This document shows positions 2,588 to 36,258 of a DNA stretch of 64,000 nucleotides, piece by piece. Made by a program: the position numbers and the translations under genes. The notes under the pieces were generated by a model. That model did not search any database and was not told where the DNA came from. It saw only the letters and a program-made list of their open reading frames with translations. The stretch's first letter is position 1; every line of letters begins with the position of its first letter. The DNA lies in assembly GCA_034006035.1 (NCBI GenBank), contig JAVETN010000005.1:1-64000 (forward strand), given 5' to 3'. The DNA is from Desulforegulaceae bacterium. GTDB taxonomy: Bacteria; Desulfobacterota; Desulfobacteria; Desulfobacterales; JACKCP01.

Positions 2588-3229
2588 TTATATCTTTGGT
2601 TCCCGGCTTTTAATTTCCCAGGGTTCAACTTCATTTATATTTTCAACTTCTTCCCAACCTGTAAACATTGCTTTTATGTGAGCTGTCCAGGTGTGTCCTG
2701 TGGTTGTCATATAAATATGGATGATTAAAAAAAGTACAAAAGCAAAAGCACCTATTGTGTGAAGAGCTCCAAGAACAGCTAAATCGGTAAAAAACAAATC
2801 TTTGGGAAGCTCATTGTAATAATAATAAAGAAATCCTGTAATAATTTGATAGGGAATTAAAAGAGAAACTATTACAAGATAGGTGATTCTTTGAAGAGGA
2901 TTGTGCTTTCTTCTTTTGCTTTTTGGAACAGGGTGGGGATGGCCCTTGAAAATATTAAAAGAATAATAAAGTATTACATCAATCATTTTTTTCATTGTTG
3001 GAATATATTGTTTCCATTCCCCTGTAATTATAAGCCAGAAAACAATGAAAATAAATAAAATCAGCCATGTCCAGGCAGCATAATTGTGGATATTAAAGGC
3101 GTTTTCAAATCCAAATAAAGTAAATGTGCTGTGGATTTCAAACCCTGTTACAATAAGAAGAATTATCAATCCCCCCTGGAGCCAATGCCAGAATCTTTCA
3201 AATCTTGTATAAAGATAAATTTTTTCCAT
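2588..3229 (-). CDS. Membrane cytochrome b (b561/hydrogenase type), partner of the octaheme cytochrome
   Basis: A 213-residue integral membrane protein with four hydrophobic segments at roughly 12-32, 46-68, 115-137 and 152-175. Paired histidines lie in or next to them (FERFWHWLQGG, NIHNYAAW, LGALHTIGAF, LIIHIYMTTTGH), the pattern of di-heme cytochrome b subunits in hydrogenases, formate dehydrogenases and thiosulfate reductases. It starts 3 nt after the stop of the octaheme cytochrome gene, so the two are surely co-transcribed. The inferred role is electron transfer between the quinone pool and the periplasmic multiheme cytochrome. The ATG at 3229 is the only sensible start. Confidence 0.85.
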   Translation of the reverse strand: MEKIYLYTRFERFWHWLQGGLIILLIVTGFEIHSTFTLFGFENAFNIHNYAAWTWLILFIFIVFWLIITGEWKQYIPTMKKMIDVILYYSFNIFKGHPHPVPKSKRRKHNPLQRITYLVIVSLLIPYQIITGFLYYYYNELPKDLFFTDLAVLGALHTIGAFAFVLFLIIHIYMTTTGHTWTAHIKAMFTGWEEVENINEVEPWEIKSREPKI

Positions 3230-3232
3230 TTT

Positions 3233-4819
3233 TTAGTCCTTTTTTGAAGATGAAAATATTCTGATTAATCCATGAACAAAAACAACCCCAAGTGATAAAA
3301 ATATAAGAGCAAATCCGCCTTTATCTATCAGGCCGAACTTGTCCCTTCCAGGCATATAAAACCCAGCCAGTTTTTCCAGTCTTCCATTTGGAGAATGGCA
3401 TTGTACACAAGTAAGAGAATCTTTGGCCGGTGCAACCATATGGGTTATTTGAAAATGGTATTCTGTATCTATAAATTCATATTCTCCGCTGTATGGAAGA
3501 TCCATATAATCCATGGCTGTTTGAATAGCATTCCCCCAATGAAAATTTGACCAGTAAGAGGTATTGTTCTTTCCATAAAGATGAACTGCAGCCATTTTGT
3601 TGTTTATTTTGTCATAGGGCTGTTTTGCCTTGTGTACTTTAAAAGGATAAATTCTTGATTTTTCGTCATTCATATCGCCCATTACACAATTTAGTTTTAT
3701 AGGTGAATTTGAAGGATCTATTTCATCTGTTAAAAGAACGTATTCCAGGGAACCATTGTACCAGAAATATTCAGGCTCAACATTTTTTTCCCAGGTAAAA
3801 TCTCCTTTTTGGGATGAATATTTAATTCTTTGCATTTCTTCATCCATTTCAACATAGGGCTTTCCATCTTTTAGGTCTCCGGCAGTTGACCAGTCCCATT
3901 GCATTTTAGTTGGATTTTGTCTTGCAAAAGCAGGAATATGACAGGCCTGACAAGAAACTTTATCAGTATGGTCATTTAATTTTTTTACATTTTTATGGGG
4001 TGAGTCAGTGTGGCAGGAAACACAGGAAATTCTTTTTACCATATCTGAATCAAGAACAGATTTTCTATCTGTAAAAGCAGGTGTTTTATAACAGCGGCCT
4101 GCAATTTTATGATCAACTGTGGTGTGACATCTTGCACAGGAAAAATCTCCTCCGTCTTTGGACATATGAACATCTAAATCATAGGGAGGATCAATTAATG
4201 AACTGTCAAGATCTCCGTGTTTTACTCCGTCTCCTCCGCCTCCGTAAAAATGGCAGGCTCCGCAATTGTGTCTGGTTGGAAGTCCTACACTTTGAGCAGA
4301 TTTGTTCAAATCAACTTTTTTATAAAGTTCGTCTCCAAAATATTTGTCTTCTAAGGCTGGATAACCTGCATCTGTTGGAAATTTTTTATATTCACGGCTT
4401 TGCTCATGACAAACAAGACAATCTACTTTTTGCTCATTTGTGAAATCAAAATTATTATCTTTCCAGCCGTATCCTGAATGACATGAAGTGCAACGAGCCT
4501 CGTTGCTTGCTATGTTCATTCAGAAATTGTTCATGGTAATTCCACCTTTTCCCATTTTTCCGGTTTTGTCTGCTCCGCATTCCCAGGACCAGTGAATGGT
4601 GTCGTGAATTTGTTTTGATGCGTCGGTATGACAAAAAATGCAAGCACTTGTTACTTCTTCAGGGGTTCCAAATTTTTGCTGAAGAAGGTCAATTTTATTG
4701 TGATCTGCTGTGGTCCAGCTTCTGTAATCAGAAGAATTTGCCTCTGTTACTATAAAAGAAGCCGGCAGCAGATAAGCACAAGTCGCCAGTAAAAGATAAA
4801 CAATAAGTTTTTTTTGCAT
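3233..4819 (-). CDS. Octaheme tetrathionate reductase-like cytochrome c with in-frame UGA (selenocysteine)
   Basis: Reading TGA 4520-4522 as Sec100 gives 528 residues. An export signal (about 1-27) is followed by CIFCH at 60-64, Sec at 100, then CTSCH 110-114, CLVCH 134-138, CGACH 186-190, CARCH 228-232, CVSCH 266-270, CQACH 290-294 and CVQCH near 471-475. That is exactly eight heme motifs. A C-terminal membrane helix (about 501-521) anchors it. The context NNF-Sec then SNEARCTSCHSGYGW matches the octaheme tetrathionate reductase family. In characterised members, from memory, that position is a cysteine close to the active-site heme. The frame is unchanged across the TGA. Without read-through the downstream part would have no signal peptide and the upstream part only one heme. 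A purine-rich GGGGGAAAAG ribosome site precedes the ATG. The true substrate (tetrathionate, nitrite, hydroxylamine or other) is unknown. Confidence 0.82.
4490..4522 (-). promoter_or_regulatory. Candidate bacterial SECIS element after the UGA
   Basis: On the minus strand, UGA at 4522-4520 is followed after 13 nt by a perfect 7-bp stem GCAACGA / UCGUUGC (4506-4490) closed by the triloop GGC. The loop starts 20 nt after the UGA and its first two bases are G. Bacterial SECIS models, as I recall them, require a hairpin inside the coding sequence, an apical loop roughly 16-37 nt after the UGA, and a G in the first two loop positions. All are met. SelB recognition is inference. Confidence 0.65.
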
Positions 4820-5040: not shown

Positions 5041-5395
5041 TGGTCAATTAGTTTGTTTTATGAGTCTGTACAGATAAAGCTTGTTATTTCATGTGTTTAC
5101 ATTCCCAAGCTGGAGCTTGGGAACGAGCCTACAACTAGTCCGAGTCTAAATCAGAGCTTGGGAACGAGCCTACAACTAGTCCGAGTCTAAATCAGAGCTT
5201 GGGAACGAGCCTGCAACTAGTCCGAGTCCAAATCAGAGCTTGGGAACGAGCCTGCAACTAGTCCGAGTCCAAATCAGAGCTTGGGAACGAGCCTAAAAAG
5301 CATTCTGGTCAATTAGTTTGTTTTATGAGTCTGTACAGATAAAGCTTGTTATTTCATGTGTTTACATTCCCAAGCTGGAGCTTGGGAACGAGCCT
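5041..5395. repeat. Inverted-orientation copies of the palindromic repeat family, 90-bp direct duplication
   Basis: A block at 5041-5130 recurs without change at 5306-5395, 265 bp apart. Each copy ends in the palindrome TTCCCAAGCTGGAGCTTGGG(AA) (5102-5123 and 5367-5388). Reverse-complemented, the block aligns with the body of the left units (ATTAG, TCTGT, TTATTTCA, TTTACATTCCCAAGC in order), so it is the same family on the opposite strand. The right copy touches the 3' end of the radical SAM gene. Confidence 0.85.
5113..5294. repeat. 41-bp tandem repeat array
   Basis: The string GAGCTTGGGAACGAGCCT starts at 5113, 5154, 5195, 5236 and 5277, an exact 41-bp period. Each unit carries one arm of the palindrome plus ACAACTAGTCCGAGTC. 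Units differ by only a few substitutions (TACAAC versus TGCAAC, GTCTAA versus GTCCAA). There is no unique spacer between copies, so it is not CRISPR. Its homogeneity suggests recent expansion. Confidence 0.92.
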
Positions 5396-16992: not shown

Positions 16993-18882
16993 TTAGTTTT
17001 CAGAATTGATTTTATTGCCTTTAAAACTTTTGGTTGCAACCATTAAAATTGAAATAGCCGCTGGTGTAATTCCTTCAATCCTTGATGCCTGACCAAGATT
17101 AACAGGCATTACCTTTATAAGTTTTTCTTTTATTTCACTGGTAAGGGTATTGAGGTTTTCAAAACTAAATCCTTTTGGAATTTTAATTTTTTCAAGGTTT
17201 TTGAATTTTTCAATTTCAGCAATTTGCCTTTGAATATAGCCTTCATATTTAATTTCAATTTCAACCTGCTTTTGGCAAATTTTATGGACAGGATTTTCCA
17301 ATGGAGAAAGGTTTAATACAGCATCATATCCAAGTTCTGCCCTTTTAATAAGCTTATCAAGATGGATACCTGTTTCAATGGTTGAAGAGTTTTTGGATTC
17401 AAGCCAGGTGTTTACTTCAGGCAATGGCTTGATCACTGTATTTCTGACTCTTTTAATTTCATCTTCAATTATTTTTTCTTTTTCAATTAGATCATTTACA
17501 AAGTCTTTAGAAACAAGTCCTAAGCTGTGGCCGATTTTTGCCAGACGAAAATTTGCATTGTCTTCCCTTAAAATAAGCCTGTATTCAGCTCTTGAAGTAA
17601 AAATTCTATAAGGTTCGCTGGTTCCTTTGGTTACAAGATCATCTACCATCACACCCATATAACCCTGGGATCTGTCTAAAATAAAAGGCTCTTTTTTCAT
17701 TAGTTTAAGGGCTGCATTTATTCCAGCCCACATTCCCTGGGCTGCAGCTTCTTCATATCCTGAAGTTCCGTTTATTTGGCCTGCCATGAAAAGACCGTCT
17801 ATTTTTTTTGTTTCAAGGGTTGGCTTAAGCTGTCTTGGTTCTATGACTGAATATTCAATTGCATATCCAGGTCTGACAATCTTTGCTTCTTCAAGGCCCT
17901 TAACTGCTCTTACAAAGGGAATTTGAATTTCAAGGGGAAGGGAATTTCCAAGTCCGCTTGCATAAATTTCGTCTGTGTCCAGCCCTTCAGGTTCAAGAAT
18001 TATATGATGTTTGTCCCTGTGGGGAAATTTTACAGCTTTATCTTCAAATGAAGGGCAATATCTGGCAGAAACTCCTGTAATTGCACCGCTGTACAAAGAA
18101 GATTTGCTTATATTATTTAAAACAATTTCTATGTTTTTTTCATTGGTGTATCCAAGATAACTGGGAAGATATTTAAGAGAAGATACCCTGGTATTTGAAA
18201 AGGAAAAAGGTTTTGGTTCAATATCAGCTAAGTGCTCCTGAAATTTTGAAAAATCTATGGAAGATTTTTTTAATCTTGGAGGAGTTCCGGTTTTCATTTT
18301 AAACATGTTTAAACCATTTTTTTCAAGACAATCCAAAAGAGAGTATGAGCCAAATTCTCCGGCACGTCCTGCTTTTATCCTGCTTTTTCCAATATGAACC
18401 AGCCCCCCAAGAAAAGTTCCAGCACAAATTATTGCAGAATCTGTTTTATAATAAAAACCTGTTTCATCAATTACTCCTTTAACCTTTGAGTCCTCAATTA
18501 GAATTTCTTCTATATGGGCTTGTTTTAAATCAAGGTTTTTTGTTTCTTCAATAACTTTTTTCATTTCAATATGATAGCGGTTTTTATCGTTTTGTGTTCT
18601 TGAAGAGTGAACAGCAGGACCTTTTTTTGTATTTAAGGTTTTATACTGAATTGCAGTTTTGTCAGTTATTTTGGCCATTTCTCCGCCAAGAGCGTCAATT
18701 TCTTTTACAAGCTGACCTTTTCCTGTACCTCCAATAGAAGGACTGCAGGGCATTGAAGCAACCTTGTCCAGATCAATGGCAAATAATACTGTTTTTATAC
18801 CCATTCTTGCTGCTGCAAGTGCTGCTTCGCATCCTGCATGCCCAGCTCCTATAACAGCTAAATCATAAGATAAATATGTCAT
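16993..18882 (-). CDS. mnmG: tRNA uridine 5-carboxymethylaminomethyl modification enzyme MnmG
   Basis: 629 residues, normal family length. With MnmE and GTP it installs the cmnm5 group on U34 of certain tRNAs. The FAD-binding Rossmann motif VIGAGHAGCEAALAAARMG is at about 9-27, followed by PSIGGTGKGQLVKEIDALGG. Further signatures are KMKTGTPPRL, MAGQINGTSGYEEAAAQG and TSRAEYRL. The C-terminal helical region ends normally. It is divergent from the YhcC-type gene. Confidence 0.96.
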   Translation of the reverse strand: MTYLSYDLAVIGAGHAGCEAALAAARMGIKTVLFAIDLDKVASMPCSPSIGGTGKGQLVKEIDALGGEMAKITDKTAIQYKTLNTKKGPAVHSSRTQNDKNRYHIEMKKVIEETKNLDLKQAHIEEILIEDSKVKGVIDETGFYYKTDSAIICAGTFLGGLVHIGKSRIKAGRAGEFGSYSLLDCLEKNGLNMFKMKTGTPPRLKKSSIDFSKFQEHLADIEPKPFSFSNTRVSSLKYLPSYLGYTNEKNIEIVLNNISKSSLYSGAITGVSARYCPSFEDKAVKFPHRDKHHIILEPEGLDTDEIYASGLGNSLPLEIQIPFVRAVKGLEEAKIVRPGYAIEYSVIEPRQLKPTLETKKIDGLFMAGQINGTSGYEEAAAQGMWAGINAALKLMKKEPFILDRSQGYMGVMVDDLVTKGTSEPYRIFTSRAEYRLILREDNANFRLAKIGHSLGLVSKDFVNDLIEKEKIIEDEIKRVRNTVIKPLPEVNTWLESKNSSTIETGIHLDKLIKRAELGYDAVLNLSPLENPVHKICQKQVEIEIKYEGYIQRQIAEIEKFKNLEKIKIPKGFSFENLNTLTSEIKEKLIKVMPVNLGQASRIEGITPAAISILMVATKSFKGNKINSEN

Positions 18883-18985
18883 TTTATTTCTTGTTTCCGA
18901 TTTTTTTAATTTACAATTATTAAAGCGAAGTATTACATATCACAAGTTTTTAAAATTTGTGAATAGATAAAAACAAGGATTTATT

Positions 18986-19915
18986 TTGGATACAAAGATT
19001 AAAAGATATAAAGATCTTAATAGCTTTTTAAGAGAATATTTCAATGAAAGAGTACAAAAAGTAAGTGTAGATGCTGGATTTACCTGTCCAAACAGGGATG
19101 GAAGTATTTCCTATGGAGGATGTACTTTTTGCAATCCTAAAGGTTCGGGAACAGGGGCATTTGCAAGGGGAATTTCTATAAAATCCCAACTTGAATCAGG
19201 AAAAAAACGCCTTGGAAAAAGATATAAGGCAAAAAAATTTCTGGCTTATTTTCAAGCATTCACAAATACTTACGGCACAAAAGAAGAACTTAAAAAAATT
19301 TATGATGAAGCACTTTCCGTGGAAGGAGTCTGCGGTCTTAGCATAGGTACAAGACCTGATTGCATTGATAAAGAAAAAATCAGGATTTTTGAAGAATATG
19401 CACAAAAAGGTTATTTAATTTGGATGGAATACGGGCTTCAATCCATTCATGATCAAACCCTTAAAAGGATAAACAGAGGCCATGATTTCAACTCATTTGA
19501 AAAAGCAGTGGAATTAACAAAAAACAGGGGAATTTATATTTGTGCCCATGTTATTTTAGGGCTTCCAGGTGAAACCCGTGAAGATATGATTGAAACAGCA
19601 AAAAAAATTTCTGAAATGAAAGTGGACGGGGTAAAACTTCACCTATTATATGTGGTAAAAGGTACTTCCATGGAAACGGAGTTTGAAAATAAAACTTTAA
19701 GATGCCTTACCCAAAAGAAATATGTTGAAGTTGCAGCTGATTTTATTGAACATATATCCAAAAATATAACAATCCACAGGGTAACAGGAGATCCTCATAT
19801 AGATGAACTTGTTGCTCCTTTTTGGTCATTAAGAAAAGATGAAACTCTTACAATGATAAATAAAGAACTTGAAAAACGGGGTAGTTTTCAGGGCAGTAAA
19901 TCTGAGTTTGATTGA
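18986..19915 (+). CDS. YhcC-type radical SAM protein (TIGR01212 family)
   Basis: 309 residues. The family motif CPNRDGSISYGGCTFC at about 29-44 carries the cluster cysteines. LSIGTRPDCI, the EYGLQS strand and HVILGLPGETREDM follow as in TIGR01212 proteins of unassigned function. The start is a TTG at 18986 preceded by AAGGAT. No in-frame ATG lies near the beginning. Confidence 0.88.
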   Translation: MDTKIKRYKDLNSFLREYFNERVQKVSVDAGFTCPNRDGSISYGGCTFCNPKGSGTGAFARGISIKSQLESGKKRLGKRYKAKKFLAYFQAFTNTYGTKEELKKIYDEALSVEGVCGLSIGTRPDCIDKEKIRIFEEYAQKGYLIWMEYGLQSIHDQTLKRINRGHDFNSFEKAVELTKNRGIYICAHVILGLPGETREDMIETAKKISEMKVDGVKLHLLYVVKGTSMETEFENKTLRCLTQKKYVEVAADFIEHISKNITIHRVTGDPHIDELVAPFWSLRKDETLTMINKELEKRGSFQGSKSEFD

Positions 19916-35109: not shown

Positions 35110-35181
35110 TTTTTTTTCCGTAAACTAGTTTATTATAAATTAAATTTATTTGTTTAAAACAATTAATTTCTACCTTGGCAA

Positions 35182-36258
35182 TCAGTTTTTTAAAATTTCT
35201 TTGTAATAGGATAAACCGTATTCATCAAGCTTTTCATATGGAATAAACTTTAATGACCCAGAATTTATGCAATATCTTAATCCATAAGGTTTTGGACCAT
35301 CATTAAAAACATGGCCAAGATGTGAGTCTGATGAGCTGCTTCTTACTTCAGTTCTTTCCATAAAAAGTTTTTTATCTGTTTTTTCATAAACTGCACCTGG
35401 ATTTATGGGCTTTGTAAAAGAAGGCCAGCCTGAACCTGAATCAAACTTATCTTTGGATGAAAAAAGAGGCTTTTTTGATACTATGTCAACGTAAATCCCT
35501 TTGTTTTTATTGTCATTATACTCATTGTCAAAGGGAGGCTCAGTTCCGTCATTTTGAGTTAGTTCAAACTGAAGCGGGGTAAGTGTTTTTTTGAGCTCTT
35601 CTTTTTGATAATATTTTTTCTTTGCAGAAATTGCCTTTTTTTCTTTAATTGAATTTACATATTCTTCCCTGCCTGATCCTTTTTTATAGATTTTAAATCT
35701 AAAAGGATTTTTTTTGTGATAATTTTGATGTTCTTCTTCAGCAGGATAAAATTTAGAAAATTCTTTTAACTCAATTTTAATAGGTTTTTCATAAAGTCCT
35801 GATTTAGCAAGGGTTTTAATTTTTTCTTCAGCTTGAGTTTTTTCTTCTTTTGTATTGAAAAAAATTGCGGGTTTATATTGGGGGCCTCTGTCTGCAAAAG
35901 AGCCTTTGTCGTCTGTGGGATCTATATTAATAAAGAAAAAATCCATTAGTTTTTTAAAGTCAGTTTCATTGGGATTGTATTTTATCAGCACAACTTCAAG
36001 GTGTCCGGTTTTTCCGGTTGATACTTCTTCATATTCAGGGTTTTCAGTGTTTCCTCCCATATAGCCCGATACTGCTTCATACACTCCTGGAAAATTGTAA
36101 AATGCATGTTCAATACACCAGAAGCAACCACCTGCAAATGCTGCTGTTTTATATTCTTTTGTCATTTTAATTTCCTTTGTTTTATTGTTTTTTGCTAAAG
36201 TTATCTGGGGGATAAAAAAAATGGTAATTAAAAAAAACATTTTTATATATTGTTTCAT
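35182..36258 (-). CDS. msrAB: Exported MsrA-MsrB fusion methionine sulfoxide reductase
   Basis: 358 residues. A signal peptide (to about residue 22, ITLA) precedes MsrA ([33 protein letters not shown]) and MsrB ([50 protein letters not shown] with catalytic Cys). It reduces both S and R methionine sulfoxides in periplasmic proteins. The MsrB part lacks the zinc CxxC pairs. Electrons would have to come from an exported thiol system not seen here. Confidence 0.93.

Follow-up and report, generated by a model that had tools for sequence, protein, structure and literature searches.

Bacterial SECIS (bSECIS) elements have been described by a set of consensus rules: a loop of 3–9 nt, an upper stem of 4–16 bp, a UGA-to-loop distance of 16–37 nt, a G within the first two loop positions that is mostly followed by G or U, and a minimum free energy (MFE) of at most -7.5 kcal/mol (PMC13188914). 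Epsilonproteobacterial selenoprotein genes have been described with compact hairpins of apical type, a few nucleotides beyond the UGA, in which one loop G is invariant (PMC4607533). Selenocysteine (Sec) in the octaheme cytochrome family is already on record, because a TIGR04315 octaheme c-type cytochrome, WP_331457571.1, is listed among selenoproteins from GenBank annotation only (PMC13188914). Reductase activity on tetrathionate, nitrite and hydroxylamine has been reported for cysteine-containing homologues (PMC6449678). No paper on the SECIS or the Sec position of the octaheme family was found in the open-access literature.

The DNA analyzed here, referred to as the window, is a stretch of 64,000 nt from a Desulforegulaceae bacterium (contig JAVETN010000005.1). 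Its features of interest are collected in Table 1. When the UGA is read as Sec, two open reading frames (4520–4819 and 3233–4519) merge into one 528-residue protein. This read-through protein gave a full-length match to TIGR04315 (603 bits, curated cut-off 375, residues 38–488) and also matches PF11783. The sole solved relative is PDB 1SP3, the octaheme tetrathionate reductase of Shewanella oneidensis (E 4e-122), and an AlphaFold model of the read-through protein (pLDDT 80) was matched to the same structure by Foldseek (E 7e-43, TM 0.85 by target). Eight CXXCH motifs are present, at residues 60, 110, 134, 186, 228, 266, 290 and 471. The N-terminus carries a signal-like segment, and the model shows a C-terminal membrane-type helix at 496–525.

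Table 1. Coordinates of the octaheme cytochrome locus and its recoding elements in the window.
Feature	Position	Strand	Evidence
Predicted selenoprotein gene, octaheme tetrathionate-reductase-family c-type cytochrome, 528 aa	3233..4819	-	TIGR04315, 1SP3, Foldseek, CXXCH count
Cytochrome b561-type membrane subunit, 3 nt downstream of the cytochrome gene	2588..3229	-	PF01292 E 4e-30
Predicted Sec codon (in-frame UGA), encoding residue 100 of the read-through protein	4520..4522	-	Alignment to invariant Cys
Predicted bSECIS hairpin GCAACGA-GGC-TCGTTGC, 7-bp stem and 3-nt loop, coding within S-N-E-A-R-C	4490..4506	-	Folding, conservation in 70 UGA-bearing genes and one Cys relic, codon freezing
Possible lower stem enclosing the UGA and the hairpin (UGAAUGA with UCAUUCA, CAU with AUG)	4475..4522	-	Fold prediction, window only

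Counted along the alignment, the UGA column corresponds to Cys64 of 1SP3, which, from the alignment and background on the enzyme, we take to be the active-site, catalytic cysteine. The position is Cys in the S. oneidensis enzyme and a predicted Sec in the window protein. The two share the same fold, and the window protein keeps the Lys and Asp of the GGGGDxVKHGD segment: Asp150 and Lys153 of 1SP3 are conserved in the alignment, and K200 aligns with Lys153, the active-site lysine and reportedly a haem ligand. C100 and K200 are invariant in 32 aligned family members (Sec written as Cys). WP_331457571.1, likened here by family name, belongs to the same protein family and has one Sec. Its listing gives no Sec motif, whereas here the Sec is placed at the Cys64 column; the two SECIS types and the exchange with Cys described below also go beyond that listing (PMC13188914).

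The S. oneidensis enzyme is soluble and periplasmic (PMC6449678), in contrast to the window protein with its predicted C-terminal membrane-type helix and adjacent b-type cytochrome gene. The downstream b561-type gene resembles the thiosulfate reductase cytochrome b model NF011582, at a score below the cut-off, and probably encodes the quinol-oxidising partner of the octaheme cytochrome. The modelled helix and the adjacent b561-type gene are consistent with a membrane-bound quinol-linked reductase.

Read along the minus strand, the UGA (4522–4520) is followed by the 13 nt AUGAACAUAGCAA and then by GCAACGA GGC UCGUUGC (4506–4490). A preliminary description of this DNA had noted a stem of seven perfect pairs, closed by a GGC triloop, that starts 13 nt after the UGA, with the loop starting 20 nt after it; all of these numbers proved exact, on the sequence and, for the stem, on folding. 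The seven pairs are all Watson–Crick. The 17-mer alone folds at -7.5 kcal/mol, and at -9.0 kcal/mol with its flanks. As judged against the rules of PMC13188914, the loop (3 nt) and stem (7 bp) are of permitted size, G is the first loop base with G next, the UGA-to-loop spacing of 20 nt (24 nt in the type II genes described below) is in range, and the MFE of -7.5 stands exactly at the published limit. The UGA directly upstream of the hairpin falls at a position where homologues have Cys, and SelA, SelB, SelD and tRNA-Sec are present in the genome. All computable bSECIS criteria of that paper therefore hold for the window hairpin. It nevertheless differs from the general bSECIS picture (PMC13188914) in having the smallest permitted loop, an energy at the limit and no conserved lower stem, and its sequence is unusually frozen over many genera. 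The epsilonproteobacterial hairpins are likewise compact and apical, with a loop G shortly after the UGA (PMC4607533).

The 52-nt fold starting at the UGA reached -17.2 kcal/mol (z = -3.9), an energy matched in none of 200 dinucleotide shuffles and in 1 of 4,000 synonymous recodings. The lower stem of the window is probably not essential, because other Sec genes lack such a stem, and it was set aside as a required part. A search of Rfam with the window element returned no match.

The genome (2.64 Mb, 97.7% complete) contains a complete Sec machinery, with scores above curated cut-offs for SelB (365 bits), SelA (613), SelD (353) and tRNA-Sec (81); the tRNA-Sec, with anticodon TCA, lies 7 kb past the end of the window. 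Formate dehydrogenase is absent from the genome, and SelD was therefore taken as the second test case. The SelD gene (L156:1280-2341, on G000 contig C11) has an internal UGA and is itself a selenoprotein gene. Its hairpin, GGCCGGA-GGU-UCUGGCC, has the geometry of the window hairpin, namely a 7-bp stem and a 3-nt loop that opens with GG and starts 20 nt after the UGA, but the stem sequence and the loop (GGU) are unlike it. The geometry, but not the sequence, is thus common to two unrelated selenoprotein genes in this genome. Among 80 genomes examined for SelB, 75 had a match above the cut-off, irrespective of Sec or Cys; of the remainder, the three Sec genomes all have tRNA-Sec, and the two Cys genomes also had no tRNA-Sec match. 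Since SelB is nearly universal in the phylum, its presence is a weak discriminator between the Sec and Cys states.

Alternatively, the hairpin could merely reflect protein conservation in the SNEARC haem-binding stretch and carry no signal. The stem does lie within a conserved motif, and an equally stable hairpin that follows the bSECIS rules arose in 181 of 20,000 recodings (0.9%) that kept the same 20 residues at local codon usage. Hairpins as good occur at 74 of 13,404 coding positions of the window and after 17 of all 2,828 TGA triplets. By chance alone, such a short hairpin is only moderately rare, which is suggestive and not decisive. Conservation puts it far above chance: a search of 389 genomes of the order yielded 71 copies of the 17-mer GCAACGAG[G/T]CTCGTTGC and no copy of its reversed control. 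Every one of the 71 copies, all of which were checked, lies within an octaheme family gene, and in 70 of them an in-frame UGA, always at the same codon, precedes the hairpin by 13 nt. The remaining copy belongs to a gene with TGC (L143).

For comparison of the Sec and Cys states, 132 genes covering the site were gathered from searches of 58, 389 and 395 genomes and one contig scan. The column holds UGA in 47 genes and TGC or TGT in 85, so that Cys or UGA occupies it in all 132. In the 47 genes the UGA is always at the same codon and occurs nowhere else in the aligned region. A bSECIS-type hairpin of one of two types is present in 47/47 UGA genes, while the exact hairpin is found in one of the 85 Cys genes (L143). 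With a looser definition, a hairpin of -5 kcal/mol or better with G in the first two loop positions, the Cys genes that carry one number 8/85. The preliminary description had proposed a compact bacterial SECIS and held that Cys orthologues keeping the hairpin equally would speak against it; the single exact hairpin among 85 Cys genes bears the proposal out.

These counts also bear on whether the UGA is recoded by a SECIS. Were it a real stop, the locus would be a pseudogene, or two genes with a restart at the AUG that immediately follows the UGA in the window. UGA is a normal stop in this genome, terminating 5 of the 28 open reading frames of at least 250 aa in the window. Nevertheless, about 98 homologues have UGA at the exact codon, most of them with no AUG next to it, the downstream part alone would have neither the signal segment nor the first haem site, and the frame is otherwise intact. 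We regard a real stop as extremely improbable. An altered code, with UGA read as tryptophan or cysteine and no SECIS recoding, would accord with the need for Cys or Sec at this position in all relatives. Yet UGA ends other genes in the window, the Sec machinery is complete, and the codon falls in a Cys column rather than a Trp one and is never seen without the hairpin; this reading can be given almost no weight.

The two hairpin types share their place and have unrelated sequences. Type I, GCAACGA-G[G/T]C-TCGTTGC, has its loop at 20 nt, codes for N-E-A/S-R-C and is found in 19 genes including that of the window. Type II, CTGGTGC-AG[G/T]T-GCACCAG, has its loop at 24 nt, codes for N-W-C-R/S-C and is found in 28 genes (L055, L107-L129 and L131-L134). 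Two type II genes have one G-C pair changed to G-U, and in L133 the outermost pair is changed on both sides, from C-G to T-A. Across the Sec genes of the family the only loops are GGC, GTC, AGGT and AGTT. In coding N-W-C-R-C, the type II hairpin brings in an extra cysteine, placed two residues ahead of the first Cys in the CTSCH haem motif.

Nucleotide-level constraint was assessed as codon identity in amino-acid-conserved columns. For the 19 type I genes the median over 145 such columns was 0.49, and only six columns, the consecutive hairpin codons S-N-E-A-R-C, reached 0.9 or more, each with a value of 1.00. Type II genes had five columns at this level, four of them within the hairpin, and the Cys genes had none. 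The nucleotide conservation is thus tied to the UGA. It agrees with the earlier suggestion that coding and structure are jointly constrained: in the synonymous-site comparison with Cys orthologues that had been proposed, frozen hairpin codons appeared in UGA genes, those of SNEARC in type I Sec genes only, and none in Cys genes. In two remote type I subfamilies (about 40% protein identity) every hairpin base and the next AC are identical, and the serine that follows is TCN in most of one subfamily and AGY in the other. These distant subfamilies with the identical 17-nt hairpin (the window with L076-L092, and L054 with L056-L061) each have Cys relatives alongside; common origin, convergence and short-tract gene conversion are all compatible with the sharing.

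If the hairpin were a mere by-product of protein conservation, Cys relatives whose peptide is identical or almost so should generally share it, yet most lack it. The Sec/Cys contrast at synonymous sites, with six consecutive codons frozen in Sec genes only, the different hairpin at the same place in type II Sec genes and the same geometry in SelD of the same genome likewise stand against it. We consider it highly improbable. Instead, the hairpin is almost certainly the bacterial SECIS of the octaheme selenoprotein gene, directing SelB-dependent Sec insertion at the UGA.

Several Cys genes appear to retain traces of the signal. L143 carries its hairpin at G261:C622:5086-5102 (+ strand) with codon TGC, in a fragmented genome with a partial SelB and no tRNA-Sec match above the cut-off. 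It is probably a recent Sec-to-Cys reversion with a relic SECIS. In L083, L084 and L094, which share a clade with the Sec genes L080-L082, NEARC is retained and the hairpin is damaged to varying degree. They look like Sec-to-Cys reversions with decaying signals, a direction that the unrooted tree does not fix.

A quick LG tree, unrooted, with residues 95–116 left out and internal details provisional, required at least 10 changes between the Sec and Cys states, of which 7 are forced by starred branches. In none of 7 independent Sec/Cys pairs did the hairpin go with Cys instead of Sec; it accompanied Sec in an average of 6.7 of them (median sign test p = 0.016).

The signal appears to carry an amino-acid cost at position 108. 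Cys genes with the N..RC motif have Pro at this position, which directly follows Glu or Trp, in 54/61 cases, while the 47 Sec genes have Ala (18), Ser (1) or Cys (28), and never Pro. In type I, codon 108 has its first base at loop position 2: with a proline codon the loop would become GCC, Ala GCT keeps G-G and Ser TCT keeps G-U. We infer that the RNA signal forced the replacement of Pro, because a proline codon breaks the preference for G followed by G or U (PMC13188914). Taken jointly, the data make it likely that Cys and Sec were repeatedly exchanged beside the lysine-ligated haem, that two SECIS hairpins came to occupy the same coding stretch, that the RNA need rewrote a near-universal proline (to alanine or serine in type I, cysteine in type II), and that the hairpin decays after reversion to Cys.

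In the proposed mechanism, a ribosome would arrive at the UGA, where SelB carrying Sec-tRNA(Sec) would bind the hairpin 13 nt downstream, as in the known pathway, and the UGA would be read as selenocysteine and not as a stop. The predicted product is an exported octaheme reductase of the tetrathionate-reductase family, putatively membrane-anchored, with Sec replacing the invariant active-site cysteine and with electrons that may be fed in via the adjacent b-type cytochrome. What is established for the Sec pathway suggests SelB binding, Sec insertion and a catalytic role for Sec, and the substrate is putative.

The predicted Sec falls on the conserved active-site cysteine of a sulfur/nitrogen-cycle reductase family in many lineages of the phylum, and standard gene calling splits such genes at the UGA into two truncated proteins. 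With dozens of Sec/Cys pairs in one family, a signal frozen to the letter in the Sec state and decaying in the Cys state, and a predicted amino-acid cost of the RNA signal that accompanies Sec, the family forms a natural experiment. Both the SelB recognition rule (G and then G or U in the loop, at 20 or 24 nt from the UGA) and the catalytic gain from selenium become directly testable.

Two other UGA-spanning frames of the window were considered and rejected. In the frame 35170-36258, which encodes an MsrA-MsrB fusion with a signal-like N-terminus, the UGA comes after the fusion, four codons before the end of the frame, and looks like an ordinary stop; in the frame 16993-19044 it lies upstream of the MnmG gene proper. 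A tandem array at 5113-5295, in the interval from the cytochrome gene to a radical SAM gene, consists of a 41-bp unit (GAGCTTGGGAACGAGCCTACAACTAGTCCGAGTCCAAATCA) repeated 4.5 times with 97% matching, with related pieces on both sides.
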